Below are positions 3,178 to 49,612 of a stretch of 64,000 nucleotides of DNA, piece after piece. Position 1 is the first letter of the stretch. Every line of letters begins with the position of its first letter. Origin of the DNA: Candidatus Zixiibacteriota bacterium (GTDB taxonomy: Bacteria; Zixibacteria; MSB-5A5; DSPP01); contig JAKEHY010000019.1 of assembly GCA_022614805.1 (NCBI GenBank), positions 1-64,000 of the forward strand, written 5' to 3'. The notes below the pieces were generated by a model. It did no database searches. It was not told the origin of the DNA and saw only the letters and a list, made by a program, of their open reading frames with translations. The translations under genes and the position numbers were made by a program.

Positions 3178-3320
3178 TGTAGGGGCGAGGTATACCTCGC
3201 CCTCCCCTCTCCACCCGGTGGAGAGGGGATAAAGGGGTGAGGTTTCGGCGTAGCGGCTTGCCCCGACTTGTTCCGAGCGTAGCCGAGGAAGCGAAGCCGA
3301 GGGGAGGTCTTTAGACCTCC
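3178..3320. repeat. Intergenic repeat block (GTAGGGGCGA plus GGAGAGGGG types)
   Basis: This block joins GTAGGGGCGAGGTATACCTC, an imperfect palindrome CCCTCTCC...GGAGAGGGG (about 3205-3226), and the palindrome GGAGGTC-TTTA-GACCTCC (3303-3320). The last one overlaps the end of the neighbouring gene and supplies its stop codon. The same words recur at 4940, 28711, 44320 and 46570. Confidence 0.7.
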
Positions 3321-44179: not shown

Positions 44180-44474
44180 CACCCCATCATCCCCAACCTA
44201 GGGCAGGTTGTATCCCGACGAGTCGGGATAGTGAACCGGCCCCTTACGAAACAAATACGGGCGGGCACGGATTCAGCTACGCTCACCGCAGGCAAGACCC
44301 GCCCTACAAAAACAACTCCTCACCCTCAATCCCTCTCCACAAAGTGGAGAGGGAGGTGGGCGGTTCACGAACCGCCCCTACAGAAACACTTGGATTGGGC
44401 CTAAAAAGCGGGAGCCGCCTTCAGTTAGGCTGAAGGCGGCTCGATTGCAGAGTTCCGGACCCTCGTCCGGAACT
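44180..44474. repeat. Repeat-rich intergenic region after the GH57 gene
   Basis: It holds TATCCCGACGAGTCGGGATA, GGCGGGC...GCCCGCCCTAC, CCTCTCC/GGAGAGG (about 44333-44353), GGGCGGTTC/GAACCGCCC (about 44357-44376), a perfect 13-bp inverted repeat starting GAGCCGCCTTCAG around TTAGG (44412-44442), and a 10-bp one, AGTTCCGGAC, around CCTC (44451-44474). No T-runs follow. Confidence 0.75.
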
Positions 44475-44483
44475 TAGGGCAGG

Positions 44484-44669
44484 TTATTCCCAGACACAGC
44501 TATCTGGGAGGCTCTTGGTAGAAGGGACTTGACCCTTGAGAAGAGCCAGGCATCCCTCCTGTGTGTTCCATAGAAGGCCAAAGGTTCGGTCGACCCGATT
44601 TTGACCTTCATTTATTATAACCCTGTCGGAGTGGAAAAGTTCCCACTGAAATAGATGCGTATCCTTCAT
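44484..44669 (-). CDS. Possible small protein coupled to the four-repeat protein
   Basis: A 61-residue frame starts at ATG 44669, overlapping the stop of the upstream gene as ATGA, and reads MKDTHLFQWELFHSDRVIIN, EGQNRVDRTFGLLWNTQEGC and further to CVWE. It has a balanced composition and no repeats, but no recognised family and no independent ribosome site. The overlap style matches other real gene pairs in this window. It may also be a chance frame. Confidence 0.3.
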   Translation of the reverse strand: MKDTHLFQWELFHSDRVIINEGQNRVDRTFGLLWNTQEGCLALLKGQVPSTKSLPDSCVWE

Positions 44670-46444
44670 AGTGCCAACGAGATGGTTACGCCCCAGTTGA
44701 AGGGGTCTTTGGGGGGGGCGGCGTTCCAATCCCCGGCGGAATGGCTGCCGTCGGTTACATATTTCACGGCGTAGCTGCCGGGGGGTAGTACAACGATGTC
44801 GTCAAAGAGCCGGTTTTTGGAAGCACCGCCGGCGGGCAGCGTGTTGCGCCAGGTCATCTCCCAGACCGTGCGGCCGGTCTGGTTGTTTTCTATCCAAGCG
44901 TAGTCGTACATTTCGTCCCGGCTGCCTTCGCCGATGGCGTAGACGTGCAGGGAGGTGGTTTTGGTCAGGCGGATACGCTGCTCCCGCTCGTCGTCATCCC
45001 GAACACCGACCATCTTCACCAAAATCTCTTTCGATTCAATCTCCTCGTTGTATGGACGGACCGCCTTGGGGTCGAAACTGCCGGGGACGCCGGCGACGAC
45101 GATGCCCCAGTGGTCCTGGTCATAGGGAGGGGTGGAGTTCCATTCCCCAAAGGCGTGGGAACCATCCGTGACGTAGCGCACCAGGTATTTCCCGCGCCCA
45201 AAGTGGACAATGCCGTCGAACATCCGGTTTTTGTCGGCGCCGCCGGCCGGTTCCGTGTTGGCGCGGGTCATCTCCCAAACCCGCTCTCCCGTGGCGGCGT
45301 TTTCCATGTAGCCGTAGTCGGCGAAGAAATTATCTCCCTCGGAATACTCGCCGACGGCGTAAATCCGCAAATCCATCGGCTTGTCCAAAATGAAGCCGGA
45401 GGAGAGCAGTTCGTTGTCCCGCACGCGGAGGAATTGAACCACGACCGGCTCTTTGGCCGGCTCCACCGGAACGATTTTTTTCTGCCCCGGCTCGGCGATA
45501 AGGGAAATCCCCCAGAATTCCGGGTCGTACGGGGGCGGGGAGTTCCAGCGGCCGAAAGTGTGGGAGTCGTCGGTGAAATAGACCAGCTGGTAATCCCCGG
45601 CCGGAAGGGTTAGTTTGCCGAAATACCGGCGGTTCTTTTCCGCTCCGCCGGCATGGTCGGAACGGGAATAGGCAAGCTCCCAGATTTTTTTGCGGCTGCG
45701 CATATCCTGAATGTAGCCGCCGTCGGCGGGCTGGTCGTAGGATTCCGGGTTTTCTCCGAGGCAGTAAATGGTGAGCGCGGCCGGAAGGGAAAGCTTGAAA
45801 TTCAAACTTTTGAAGCTGGAGTTGCGTGGCTGGGTGATGGAAAGGGCGACTTTGGCTTCCAAGGGGTCGGCCGCCAGCGGACGGAAGAGGTTTTTCCCGG
45901 CCGTGACCGAAAGGAAAAGTTTTCTCCTGTCTTTTTCGGAATAATATTTGTCCGTGTTGCCGAAGAAGCGTTTGAGCCCTTCAAAAAAGCCGTGGTCGTT
46001 CCAGTCGGAGTTGAAGTAATAGAACTGATCCTTTCCGATGCCGCAGTAGTAATAAAGGGCGTACTCGCCCGCGGGCAGGTTGACTTTGGCGTCCACTTTG
46101 GCCGTCCCCTTTTTACCCCAGAATTTGCCGGGACGCAGCTCGCGCGCCATCGACCAGACCGGCTTTCTGGTTTCCAAGTCGAGAATCCAGCCGTAGGCCA
46201 AGGCGTAGTCCTGGAAGCCGTCCCAATCGTCCCAGTCATCCCGGTCGTAATCCGGCTTGATTCCCATTCCCGAAACCGTGACGGTAAGGGGCTGGCTGGT
46301 TTGGAACCGCTCCACTCGCAACTCGCCGGGGCCGAAGTCGTTCCAGTTGACGATGGGGATTTGTTGCGCCTCGGATAAAACGAAGGAAAAAAGGAGGTTT
46401 ATCAGGATGCTAAGGATTAAGGACAGAATACGCCACAGGCTCAT
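44666..46444 (-). CDS. Secreted protein of four tandem beta-rich repeats, unrecognised family
   Basis: The 592-residue protein has a signal peptide (ILSLILSILINLLFSFVLSEAQ). The rest is four related units: about 40-180 (divergent), 205-318, 335-452 and 478-592. Units 2 to 4 share WE(M/L), then (T/S)xxAGGAxKNRxF, LPxGxYxVxYVTDGSHxxGxW and NxxPPxDxxxWG. Strictly kept Trp, Gly and Asp residues suggest a sugar- or metal-binding sandwich fold exposed outside the inner membrane. Unit 1 has an acidic insert (DYDRDDWDDWD) and loses the GGAxKNR motif. I know of no named domain with this motif. ATG 46444 lacks a good ribosome site. Confidence 0.75.
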   Translation of the reverse strand: MSLWRILSLILSILINLLFSFVLSEAQQIPIVNWNDFGPGELRVERFQTSQPLTVTVSGMGIKPDYDRDDWDDWDGFQDYALAYGWILDLETRKPVWSMARELRPGKFWGKKGTAKVDAKVNLPAGEYALYYYCGIGKDQFYYFNSDWNDHGFFEGLKRFFGNTDKYYSEKDRRKLFLSVTAGKNLFRPLAADPLEAKVALSITQPRNSSFKSLNFKLSLPAALTIYCLGENPESYDQPADGGYIQDMRSRKKIWELAYSRSDHAGGAEKNRRYFGKLTLPAGDYQLVYFTDDSHTFGRWNSPPPYDPEFWGISLIAEPGQKKIVPVEPAKEPVVVQFLRVRDNELLSSGFILDKPMDLRIYAVGEYSEGDNFFADYGYMENAATGERVWEMTRANTEPAGGADKNRMFDGIVHFGRGKYLVRYVTDGSHAFGEWNSTPPYDQDHWGIVVAGVPGSFDPKAVRPYNEEIESKEILVKMVGVRDDDEREQRIRLTKTTSLHVYAIGEGSRDEMYDYAWIENNQTGRTVWEMTWRNTLPAGGASKNRLFDDIVVLPPGSYAVKYVTDGSHSAGDWNAAPPKDPFNWGVTISLAL

Positions 46445-46496: not shown

Positions 46497-46803
46497 AAGC
46501 GCCGGACTGAAGTCCGGCCTACGGAGGCATTATTCAAACACCCCCAAAATCAACTCCGAATGAAACGGTGGAGGTCTGAAGACCTCCGTTACGCAAAACC
46601 CTGATGCATAATGAAAAGCCGGACTGAAGTCCGGCCTACGGGAAATTGTCGAGAAAACATTTATGGAAACCTCACCCCTGACACCACTCCGTAAAACGGA
46701 GAGGGGAAAAAGCAAGCACAGGTTACCCTTCGGCTGCGCTCTGGGCAGGCAAAAACCAACCTGCGCTACGGCATTTTCCCGACACTGAAGTGTCGGCTAC
46801 CAT
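46497..46803. repeat. Cluster of TNNA-loop palindromes
   Basis: GCCGGAC-TGAA-GTCCGGC (46501-46518), GGAGGTC-TGAA-GACCTCC (46570-46587), GCCGGAC-TGAA-GTCCGGC again (46618-46635) and CCGACAC-TGAA-GTGTCGG (46779-46796), each followed by CTACGG, GTTACG or CTACC. Between them lie CTCACCCCTGACACC and GGAGAGGGG words. Spacing is irregular, so it is not a CRISPR. Confidence 0.8.
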
Positions 46804-46820: not shown

Positions 46821-48173
46821 TTAAAAGTCCGTTTTGCCGCTGAAGGTGAATTCCCGGATGCGCAGGGCGGGGACGTGGATGCCGCCCAAGGCGTCCCACC
46901 AGGTGTTCACCAACTTCCGCTCGCGGGAGAGCTCCACGACGTTGGAAAAGGCTTTTACCATACTTTCGGTAAAGCGCAGGTTTTTGACCCCGTGCTTGAT
47001 TTGGCCTTCTTCCACCAGAAAGACGCCGTCCCGGGTCATTCCGGTCATCGTCGCCTGGGGCGGGTCTAAAAAGCCGTTCAAGTAATGGAAGCGGGTAACC
47101 AGAAACCCGCGGGCGACGTTTTTGACCATTTTGGAAAGCCCGACCGGGCCGGCTTTCATTCCGATATGCAAGGGAACGGCCCCCTGCGCCGAAGCATCCG
47201 GCGTCAAGGCGTGACCGGTTGATTTCTTCCCCTCCTTGGCTCCGGTCAAAGTATCGTACACCACCCCCTTGGCAACCCCCTTATCGACCATCGTCACTTT
47301 TCTTTTGGCCGTCCCCTCGAAATCAAAGGGGAACGGCAGGGCTTCGGCGTCGGTGGCGTCGTCGTAGATGGTGACGTTTGGCCCGAAAAGCTGCTGGCCG
47401 ATTCTTCCCGCCAGACAGGAGGATTTTTCCTGAAAGGCGACCGAGCCGAAGGAGACGAAGCTCAACCATTCGAACAAATTCCCGACCGCGACCGGCTCCA
47501 GAACGACTTCGTATTTTCCCGGCGGAATTTCTTGGGGATGATGGGCGGCGAGGCATTTTTCTATGGAGGTTTCCGCCAGTAGGTCGAAGTCCAGTTTCCT
47601 TGTGTTTTGGGCCAGCCCTTCGGCGTAGCCGGAGGAATCGTCCGACATGGTGATTAGATTGATGGAGGCGATGGTCTGGGGCTGGTAGGCCCGGACGCCG
47701 TTGCTGTTCAAGACCGCCAGTTCCCCCTCGCCTGTTTTCAGAGAGCCATAGGCTTGCAGGTTATGTTTGGCCGCTTTTTCAAAAATCTTTTTAAGCACCG
47801 CCGCCCGTTCCTTCGGACCGAAGGCGGCCGTGGCTTTGTAGTAGGAGGTCAGTTTCGGGTATTTTTGCTTTCCAGGCAGACCGTTAAAATGAAGCGTTTC
47901 CCGCTGATGGCGGGCGATTTCCAAAGCGGCGTTCAAGGCCCGCGAGAGTTCCCCTTTTTCGAAGGTATTGGTGGAAGCCACCCCGATTTTTTTCCCCAGC
48001 GCCACGCGGAAATAAACTCTGGAATTACTCTCGGCCACGTTCTGGTGGATAATCGAGTTGGCGTAGCGGGTCAAACCGGAGTTGGAACCTACGTAAACCG
48101 CTTCAGCCTGGTCGGCCCCTGATTTTTTCAAAAGCGGCTCGAGCAAAGAAAAAATTTTCTCCCTGCCGGTCAT
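46821..48173 (-). CDS. pmbA: TldE/PmbA-type subunit of the TldD/TldE protease
   Basis: The 450-residue protein has the PmbA fold with NSRVYFRVALGKKIGVASTN, VLEPVAVGNLFEWLSF and the C-terminal GMTRDGVFLVEEGQIKHGVK NLRFTES region. It lacks the HExxxH motif, as expected for the non-catalytic partner that joins TldD to degrade unfolded or modified peptides. It overlaps tldD by four bases and so is made with it. Length is normal. Confidence 0.92.
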   Translation of the reverse strand: MTGREKIFSLLEPLLKKSGADQAEAVYVGSNSGLTRYANSIIHQNVAESNSRVYFRVALGKKIGVASTNTFEKGELSRALNAALEIARHQRETLHFNGLPGKQKYPKLTSYYKATAAFGPKERAAVLKKIFEKAAKHNLQAYGSLKTGEGELAVLNSNGVRAYQPQTIASINLITMSDDSSGYAEGLAQNTRKLDFDLLAETSIEKCLAAHHPQEIPPGKYEVVLEPVAVGNLFEWLSFVSFGSVAFQEKSSCLAGRIGQQLFGPNVTIYDDATDAEALPFPFDFEGTAKRKVTMVDKGVAKGVVYDTLTGAKEGKKSTGHALTPDASAQGAVPLHIGMKAGPVGLSKMVKNVARGFLVTRFHYLNGFLDPPQATMTGMTRDGVFLVEEGQIKHGVKNLRFTESMVKAFSNVVELSRERKLVNTWWDALGGIHVPALRIREFTFSGKTDF

Positions 48174-49612
48174 CGCGACGCTCCTACCGTGACGCCTCGA
48201 AAGCGGGCCGGGGAGGCGCCGTGAGCCACGTGGGCGGTTTGAATCGGCTCCCCCTTGCCGCAGTTGGGCACGCCCCAGACGTGCCAGTGCTTTTCATTCG
48301 TGACCGCATCGCAGGAGTTCCAGAACTCCGGCGTGATGCCGGTGTAAACCGGATTGCGGTAGAGACCTCCCAGCTTGCCATCCTTGATTTCCCAGGCCGC
48401 CTCGCAACCGAACTGGAAGTTCAGCCGGCGGTCGTCAATCGACCAGCTTTTGTTGGTGTCGATTAAAAGCCCTTCCTTCGTGTCGGCAATCAAATCCGCG
48501 AGCTCCCATTCCCCCGGAAGCAGGTTGATGTTGGTCATCCGAATCAAAGGAATCCGGTTCCAGCCGTCGGCCCGCATGGTGCCGTTGGAGGCGGCGCCGA
48601 TGACGGGAGCGGTCTCGCGCGAGGTGAGATAGCCGACGAAAAGCCCCCCGCGAATGATGTCGGAGCGCTGGGCCTTCACTCCTTCGTCGTCATAGCCGAA
48701 ACTTCCCAACCCCCCCGGCGTGGTAGCGTCGGCAACGATGTTGACCTTGCCGGAACCGTAGCGCAGCTTACCGAGCTTATCCAGGGTCATAAAACTGCCC
48801 CCCGCCAGGGAAATTTCGGTACCCAGAACCCGGTCCAGCTCGATGGGATGGCCGCAGGATTCGTGCACCTGCAGGGCCATCTGCGACCCGGTGATAATCA
48901 CATCTTTTTTTCCGGCCGGACAGTCCGGGGCCGAAAGCAGAGCCACGGCTTCATTGCGAACCCGCTCGGCGTTTCCCAACAAATCCATCTCTTCGATGAA
49001 CTCCCAGCCGCGGGTGGCGAAATCGCCGCCGTGGGAGTTCGGGTAGCTGCGGCGCTGGAGGTTTCCCTCTTCCGCAGCCGTGGCGGTGTAGCCGGCGCCG
49101 GATTCGATGATTTTCTGCTCGATGACCGAGCCCTCGGTTGAGACAAACAGCTTTTCCGTGTTGTAAAAGTTCATCGCCGCTTCGGCCACGACAATTTTGG
49201 GATGCTTTTTCAGAACGTCGCAGCAGGAAACCAAAAGGTCAATTTTATCATCCAGCGACACGGAAAACGGGTCTTGCTTCACGACCGTAACGAACCGGTC
49301 CCGGTACGGCTGCACCGGAGCCAGGCGGACTTTTTCCCTGGCGACCGTGGCCGAGGCGCGGGCAATTTCCAAGGCCCGATTGGCGGTCTTTTTCAACTCT
49401 CCCTCCGAAAGTTTGGAACTGGAAGCAAATCCCCAGCCGCCGCCGATTAGAACCCGGATGCCGAAACCGGCATCCTGCTGGCGGGAGAGCGACTCCACCT
49501 TGCCGTCTTTGACCACGATGGCCTCCGTCTGGGCGCGGATGAAGCGGGCGTCGGCGTAGTCCGCTTTTTTGGACTTCAGATATTTGATTACTCCCAATAA
49601 TTCTTCCTTCAC
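48170..49612 (-). CDS. tldD: TldD metalloprotease subunit
   Basis: The 480-residue protein carries the TldD zinc motif HESCGH (HExxxH) in QVHESCGHPIELDRVLG, with AGGSFMTLDKLG, GLGSFGYDDEGVKAQ and the late cysteine in VPNCGKGEPIQTAHVAHGA. With TldE it forms a protease that trims peptides such as microcin B17 precursors in E. coli; the native substrate here is unknown. The start is GTG 49612 with GGAGG in front. Confidence 0.94.
   Translation of the reverse strand: MKEELLGVIKYLKSKKADYADARFIRAQTEAIVVKDGKVESLSRQQDAGFGIRVLIGGGWGFASSSKLSEGELKKTANRALEIARASATVAREKVRLAPVQPYRDRFVTVVKQDPFSVSLDDKIDLLVSCCDVLKKHPKIVVAEAAMNFYNTEKLFVSTEGSVIEQKIIESGAGYTATAAEEGNLQRRSYPNSHGGDFATRGWEFIEEMDLLGNAERVRNEAVALLSAPDCPAGKKDVIITGSQMALQVHESCGHPIELDRVLGTEISLAGGSFMTLDKLGKLRYGSGKVNIVADATTPGGLGSFGYDDEGVKAQRSDIIRGGLFVGYLTSRETAPVIGAASNGTMRADGWNRIPLIRMTNINLLPGEWELADLIADTKEGLLIDTNKSWSIDDRRLNFQFGCEAAWEIKDGKLGGLYRNPVYTGITPEFWNSCDAVTNEKHWHVWGVPNCGKGEPIQTAHVAHGASPARFRGVTVGASR

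Follow-up and report, generated by a model that had tools for sequence, protein, structure and literature searches.

What does an apparently secreted protein made of repeated copies of a single domain do, and to which family does the domain belong? This question is raised by a gene in the 64,000-nucleotide stretch of a Candidatus Zixiibacteriota contig analyzed here (the window). The original prediction, made from sequence alone, described its product as a secreted protein of four copies of an undescribed domain with a binding surface outside the cell. By computation, we found a domain family with a predicted fold, a selectively conserved site, an operon context, and insertion into sensor proteins. 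The features of the locus are as follows.

44666–46444, minus strand: the gene (stop codon included), encoding a 592-residue protein that has a putative signal peptide, a divergent unit, and three intact ones
46364–46444, minus strand: putative signal peptide, residues 1 to ~27, read by eye (residues 2–26 form a helix in the model)
45899–46360, minus strand: unit 1, divergent; structural W, G, and Y kept, no E-D-D-H site, genus-specific acidic insert
45494–45850, minus strand: unit 2, with site residues E231, D241, D292, and H295
45092–45445, minus strand: unit 3, with site residues E366, D376, D427, and H430
44678–45028, minus strand: unit 4, with site residues E506, D514, D565, and H568; predicted pLDDT 96
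44412–44442, minus strand: terminator-like hairpin downstream of the gene, a 13-bp stem followed by a T-rich tail
46821–48173, minus strand: PmbA/TldE-like metallopeptidase gene, upstream on the same strand
48170–49612, minus strand: TldD-like metallopeptidase gene, upstream on the same strand

A protein of one divergent and three intact units

The open reading frame spans positions 44669–46444 of the minus strand, with the stop codon at 44666–44668. Export of the 592-residue product is suggested by the stretch MSLWRILSLILSILINLLFSFVLSEAQQ at its start, which reads by eye as a signal peptide and is devoid of a lipobox. A unit HMM matched the protein in four places, with domain E-values of 1e-63 to 1e-66 for units 2–4 (these are self-matches, since the HMM was built from these very units) and 2e-7 for unit 1. 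The secreted four-copy architecture was thus upheld, while the length of the unit, located at residues ~199–317, 334–451, and 473–589 for units 2–4, was nearer to 118 residues plus linkers than to the 115 residues proposed. The motifs that had been pointed out (AGGAxKNRxF and NxxPPxDxxxWG among them) recur, slightly varied, in each of the three intact units, but not in all four units, since unit 1 lacks both AGGAxKNR and SHxxxWNxxPP. The description of unit 1 as divergent and bearing an acidic insert proved correct. The insert, DRDDWDDWDGFQD, is common to a homologue from the same genus (L002), and the more remote relatives that were inspected lack it. When the window's own genome was searched with a 16-unit profile (the three intact units and 13 units of relatives), four places were found, all in this protein; no other unit-bearing protein, and no unit-bearing sensor, was detected there. 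As for hairpins resembling the one downstream of the gene, eight sites were found, compared to 4.0 expected in shuffles.

Predicted fold and the conserved polar site

The searches agreed with the remark that no named domain with these motifs is known: Pfam, NCBIfam, and PDB sequences all lacked a match above cut-off. The best Pfam match of the whole protein was AMPK1_CBM (CBM48, PF16561), with an E-value of 3e-5 and a score of 24.5 bits, short of the 26.8-bit cut-off. Comparisons of Pfam with single units and with sets of 16 and 22 diverse units yielded weak, scattered matches, of which a DUF5013 match below its cut-off was the best. AMPK1_CBM weakly matched 3 of the 22 diverse units and was rejected as a name for the unit, its score being under the gathering cut-off and its matching members few. 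DUF5013 (PF16405) is a doubtful name as well, as it matched one unit of 22 (E 4e-6), with 26.7 bits on its 173-residue frame against a cut-off of 28.5. CUB (PF00431) was not listed by hmmscan of the protein, of single units, or of the sets of 16 and 22 diverse units, and PPC (PF04151) was not matched in the set of 22. NCBIfam gave no match for the whole protein and scattered chance-level matches for the units. The protein matched no PDB sequence, while three profiles yielded a single match at an E-value of 1.2, obtained with the widest of them. The domain family thus seems to be undescribed, while its fold is apparently of a known type.

AlphaFold modeled unit 4 on its own as a jelly-roll sandwich with a pLDDT of 96.2. 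The model of the whole protein (pLDDT 88.5, pTM 0.82) is of low confidence at residues 139–165, which belong to unit 1. The solved fold closest to the unit model is the CUB domain of Kremen (Z 8.8, rmsd 2.3 over 91 residues), and C1s CUB1 follows at Z 7.9. PPC domains score like CUB, with a Z of 8.5 for that of Bacillus anthracis collagenase and 8.0 for a second PPC/collagen-binding domain, and GOLD domains reach a Z of about 7. Z values of about 8 are within reach of unrelated sandwich folds and do not by themselves prove kinship. Foldseek placed the tandem CUB region of neuropilin-2 at the top for the full model (E 4.7e-7, with a low TM-score). CBM6 and CBM35 were also listed by Foldseek, at E 1.9e-3; a viral structure library gave weak sandwich matches only. 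Homology to CUB or PPC was not supported, as profile–profile comparison with hhalign was not significant for either (probability 2.6–3.6% and E 0.012–0.017 for CUB; probability 1.3% for PPC). In the confident model, the unit is a jelly roll whose closest structural neighbors are CUB, PPC, and GOLD domains.

Four polar residues stand out in this predicted fold. In unit 4 numbering they are E35, D43, D94, and H97 (residues 506, 514, 565, and 568 of the protein), and all four are found in 308 of 312 units 2–4 from 104 four-unit proteins. N73 and G68-G69 are also conserved near-absolutely. In unit 1, E35 is left in 10 of 100 cases and D43 in 4 of 104, and nothing remains of the third loop. By contrast, W46 (104/104), W57 (104/104), G85 (103), and Y87 (102) are retained at 98–100%. 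The loss of the tetrad with retention of these residues implies that the functional site is separable from the fold. Judged from its residues, unit 1 preserves the structure but not the site, and provides a natural site-less control. The proposal that strict Trp/Asp/Gly conservation marks a binding surface is supported indirectly, in that unit 1 has selectively lost the polar residues, but Trp conservation is partly structural, W46 and W57 being structural-looking because they are kept even in this decayed unit.

In C1s CUB1, a Lys ligand touches E45, D98, and S100, and the Ca2+ site requires D53 (PMC4222235). Residues E45, Y52-D53, and D98-x-S100 of this domain, the sequence of which was checked against 1nzi, follow the same order as E35, Y42-D43, and D94-x-S96 of the unit. 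The strand context of the acidic residues is alike by our reading, and the E-D match is partly a manual alignment. Two hhalign runs set D43 against D53 and D94 against D98 unprompted, in alignments of no significance, with probabilities of 2.6–2.9% and E-values of 0.016–0.017, in which E is not exactly aligned. Since the order matches and the register comes without significance, a CUB-like Ca2+ site is what we infer from the analogy, rather than a result, and conservation alone would look the same for Ca2+, another metal, or a catalytic site.

Distribution, sensor hosts, and gene neighborhood

Searches revealed the family in several phyla. The unit occurs in 80 of 132 genomes of Zixibacteria (the window's phylum), in 39 of 40 genomes of Calditrichota (the phylum of a Caldithrix relative), in 51 of 296 genomes of a Bacteroidota sample, and rarely (8 of 200 sampled genomes) in Gemmatimonadota; it is also present in KSB1 and Eisenbacteria. 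The one-plus-three layout recurs in Zixibacteria, Calditrichota, KSB1, Eisenbacteria, some Bacteroidota, and rare Gemmatimonadota, and at ~590 residues it is constant in the 104 distinct proteins examined. Collections of phages, plasmids, and viral contigs contained no relatives when searched with the single unit-4 sequence. In a tree with many unresolved forks, units from different phyla group with those of the same position in the protein (8 label changes, compared to 50 in shuffles), and the tandem is therefore probably older than its spread across phyla. Other layouts were also seen. A Calditrichota homologue (L086:7796–10363) has six units, one divergent and five intact, and lies between the Omp85 and DUF4097 genes. 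A Gemmatimonadota protein (L095:8813–10360) has two units only, preceded by a lipobox-like signal (LAAMAC) and an N-terminal region of ~200 residues. One Zixibacteria genome (CP070742) carries parts of a four-unit gene at two separate loci (L031 and L083), both broken by runs of N (masked), and the gene may be duplicated there.

Single units were found inside proteins of ~1,070–1,520 residues from Bacteroidota and Calditrichota, placed among the Reg_prop propeller blades of the periplasmic sensor part. This location lends indirect support to the proposal of a binding surface outside the cell. Four hosts were scanned with Pfam (PF07494, PF07495, and PF07228 or PF02518/PF00512), and above cut-offs, L136 and L139 contain Reg_prop, Y_Y_Y, and SpoIIE, while L138 and L141 contain Reg_prop, Y_Y_Y, and HisKA/HATPase; the inserted unit was covered by no Pfam model in any of the four. 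By eye, L163 looks LytS-like, L144, L159, L161, and L165 look HisKA_3-like, and L160 looks like a hybrid kinase with a receiver and an AraC-type domain. The E-D-D-H tetrad is present in 17 of 18 single inserted units. In the tree these units form nearly one group (two changes), which is consistent with few insertions into sensors, followed by exchange of outputs. In one genome of the Bacteroidota sample, four Reg_prop/SpoIIE-type sensor genes stand in tandem (L139:1975–17574) with one unit each, and the four units have diverged from one another.

Examination of the homologues' neighbors revealed recurring partners that differ between phyla. In Calditrichota, an Omp85-family gene lies directly upstream in 16 of 20 loci, and a DUF4097 (Toastrack) gene lies directly or nearly directly downstream in 19 of 20; the three genes are on the same strand, with gaps of mostly a few bases. 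At its N-terminus, the Omp85 protein weakly resembles bactofilins, with a score that does not reach the Pfam cut-off. KSB1 and its relatives have the genes in another order, with Omp85 first, LiaF-like/DUF4097 next, and the repeat-protein gene last. The neighbors in the window are TldD and TldE, not Omp85 and DUF4097. The same TldD and TldE genes lie upstream in six other Zixibacteria loci, in five of which there is, in between, a gene for a 202–237-residue protein that, by eye only, is outer-membrane-barrel-like. A few Zixibacteria have ECF sigma and anti-sigma genes in the vicinity, but these lie at no fixed distance from the family's genes, are mostly encoded on the other strand, and were left out of the interpretation. 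The largest conserved neighbor cluster was discarded, as its members are antisense open reading frames of the gene itself.

Several repeats were observed in the window. Between the TldE gene and the repeat-protein gene there are two identical 24-nt copies of GCCGGACTGAAGTCCGGCCTACGG, at 46501–46524 and 46618–46641, with a palindrome inside, and related palindromic pieces (GGAGGTCTttaGACCTCC) occur at 3300, 28708, and 46567. The segment 53139–56049 contains thirteen repeats of ~65 nt with a 177-nt period, GDVNGDGKADFIIG-like and in the style of FG-GAP/integrin-alpha, as well as paired direct repeats of 164 and 111 nt, 1,850 nt apart; it probably encodes two tandem secreted repeat proteins born by duplication.

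A candidate envelope module and its known counterparts

Since cell-surface sensor proteins contain the domain as well, it probably serves the cell envelope as a module for ligand recognition. We favor, with a probability of about 45%, a ligand-binding envelope module in which E/D/D bind a cation in the CUB manner; the cation binding, the ligand binding, and the adaptor role described below are what we infer. The protein would be exported by its signal peptide as four tandem jelly-roll domains of the CUB/PPC/GOLD type, three of them bearing the near-invariant E, D, D, H site and the GG-x2-KNR and SHxxxWNxxPP loops, and the first being the site-less structural copy. The site would bind a divalent cation, most likely Ca2+, via E/D/D as in Ca2+-binding CUB domains, and the ordered loops would in turn retain a ligand, either within the envelope or outside the cell. 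With its three sites, the tandem protein of Calditrichota and KSB1 may act as a multivalent envelope adaptor alongside the outer-membrane Omp85 and the Toastrack proteins, and a single unit in Reg_prop sensors may recognize a similar ligand and relay the signal to outputs of the phosphatase, kinase, or AraC type. Against this reading speak the lack of significant profile similarity to CUB, Z values that unrelated sandwich folds also reach, the absence of a unit-bearing sensor from the window's own genome, and the TldD and TldE neighbors in place of Omp85 and DUF4097 in the window. It is rather unlikely that this bacterial CUB-like domain, binding Ca2+ and an envelope ligand, serves both as a three-site adaptor with an Omp85/Toastrack assembly and as a plug-in sensor domain of propeller receptors, in one undescribed envelope-sensing system common to Calditrichota, Zixibacteria, and some Bacteroidota.

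The unit could instead be a carbohydrate-binding module, a beta-sandwich in which conserved Trp residues and loops bind glycans directly, with or without Ca2+; the tandem protein would bind a polysaccharide, and the sensors would read oligosaccharides like Bacteroides hybrid two-component systems. The Foldseek matches to CBM6 and CBM35 and the weak match to AMPK1_CBM point in this direction, as does the polysaccharide use to which the Reg_prop/Y_Y_Y sensors of gut Bacteroidetes are reportedly linked. However, AMPK1_CBM stays below cut-off and leaves 19 of 22 diverse units unmatched, no CAZyme genes are prominent among the recurring neighbors, and the persistence of W46 and W57 in site-less unit 1 makes these residues look structural, so that we hold a glycan-binding role to be possible but on the unlikely side.

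We consider it improbable that the protein is a structural spacer or a surface-layer-like envelope protein, in which units stack, the conserved residues stabilize unit interfaces, and there is no diffusible ligand. The fixed four-unit architecture over many phyla, the confident multi-domain model, and the divergence of units by position would suit such a role, but lone units inside sensors keep the tetrad with no adjoining unit to stack on. More improbable still is an enzyme with three active sites, each a metal-dependent or acid–base center formed by E-D-D-H and K-N-R on the jelly roll: near-absolute conservation of the four polar or charged residues together with N73 and G68-G69 could be expected of it, but catalytic families gave no sequence match, and occurrence as a sensor insert favors binding.

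Carried by 39 of 40 sampled genomes of Calditrichota and 80 of 132 of Zixibacteria, and bearing an invariant polar site, the domain lacks a curated family, which amounts to a sizeable annotation gap. Since the unit is inserted in sensors with several output types, many Reg_prop receptors hold an input module that has gone unrecognized. Were the site CUB-like, bacterial envelopes would also make use of a chemistry that is familiar mainly from the complement proteins of animals.

Among known systems, Ca2+-binding CUB domains (C1s CUB1, MASP, cubilin, neuropilin; PF00431) have in common with the unit a jelly roll of the kind predicted for it (Z 7–9), tandem copies in secreted or ectodomain proteins, and the E...YD...D-x-S pattern in the same order. 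Yet there is no significant profile similarity, the unit lacks the CUB cysteines and the N-terminal SPxYP motif, and it has an extra invariant His, GGxxKNR and WNxxPPxDxxxWG loops, and a bacterial host. PPC (PF04151) and the collagen-binding domains of clostridial collagenases are likewise jelly-rolls that are bacterial, secreted, ~100 residues long, and often tandem, but PPC is usually a C-terminal appendage of peptidases, whereas the unit either makes up a repeat protein of its own or is inserted in a sensor. The envelope-stress loci of Toastrack (DUF4097/LiaF/LiaG; PMC11237479) are comparable in that, in Calditrichota and KSB1, the family has Toastrack genes next to it. The Toastrack partner here, however, has an apparent signal peptide (by eye) and is encoded beside Omp85 and repeat-protein genes, whereas that paper, the text of which names neither Omp85 nor Calditrichota, places Toastrack inside the cell (PMC11237479). 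Finally, the single-unit hosts have the propeller, Y_Y_Y, transmembrane helix, and output order of Reg_prop/Y_Y_Y sensors of the Bacteroides HTCS type, and differ from them in carrying a whole unit of ~118 residues between propeller blades.
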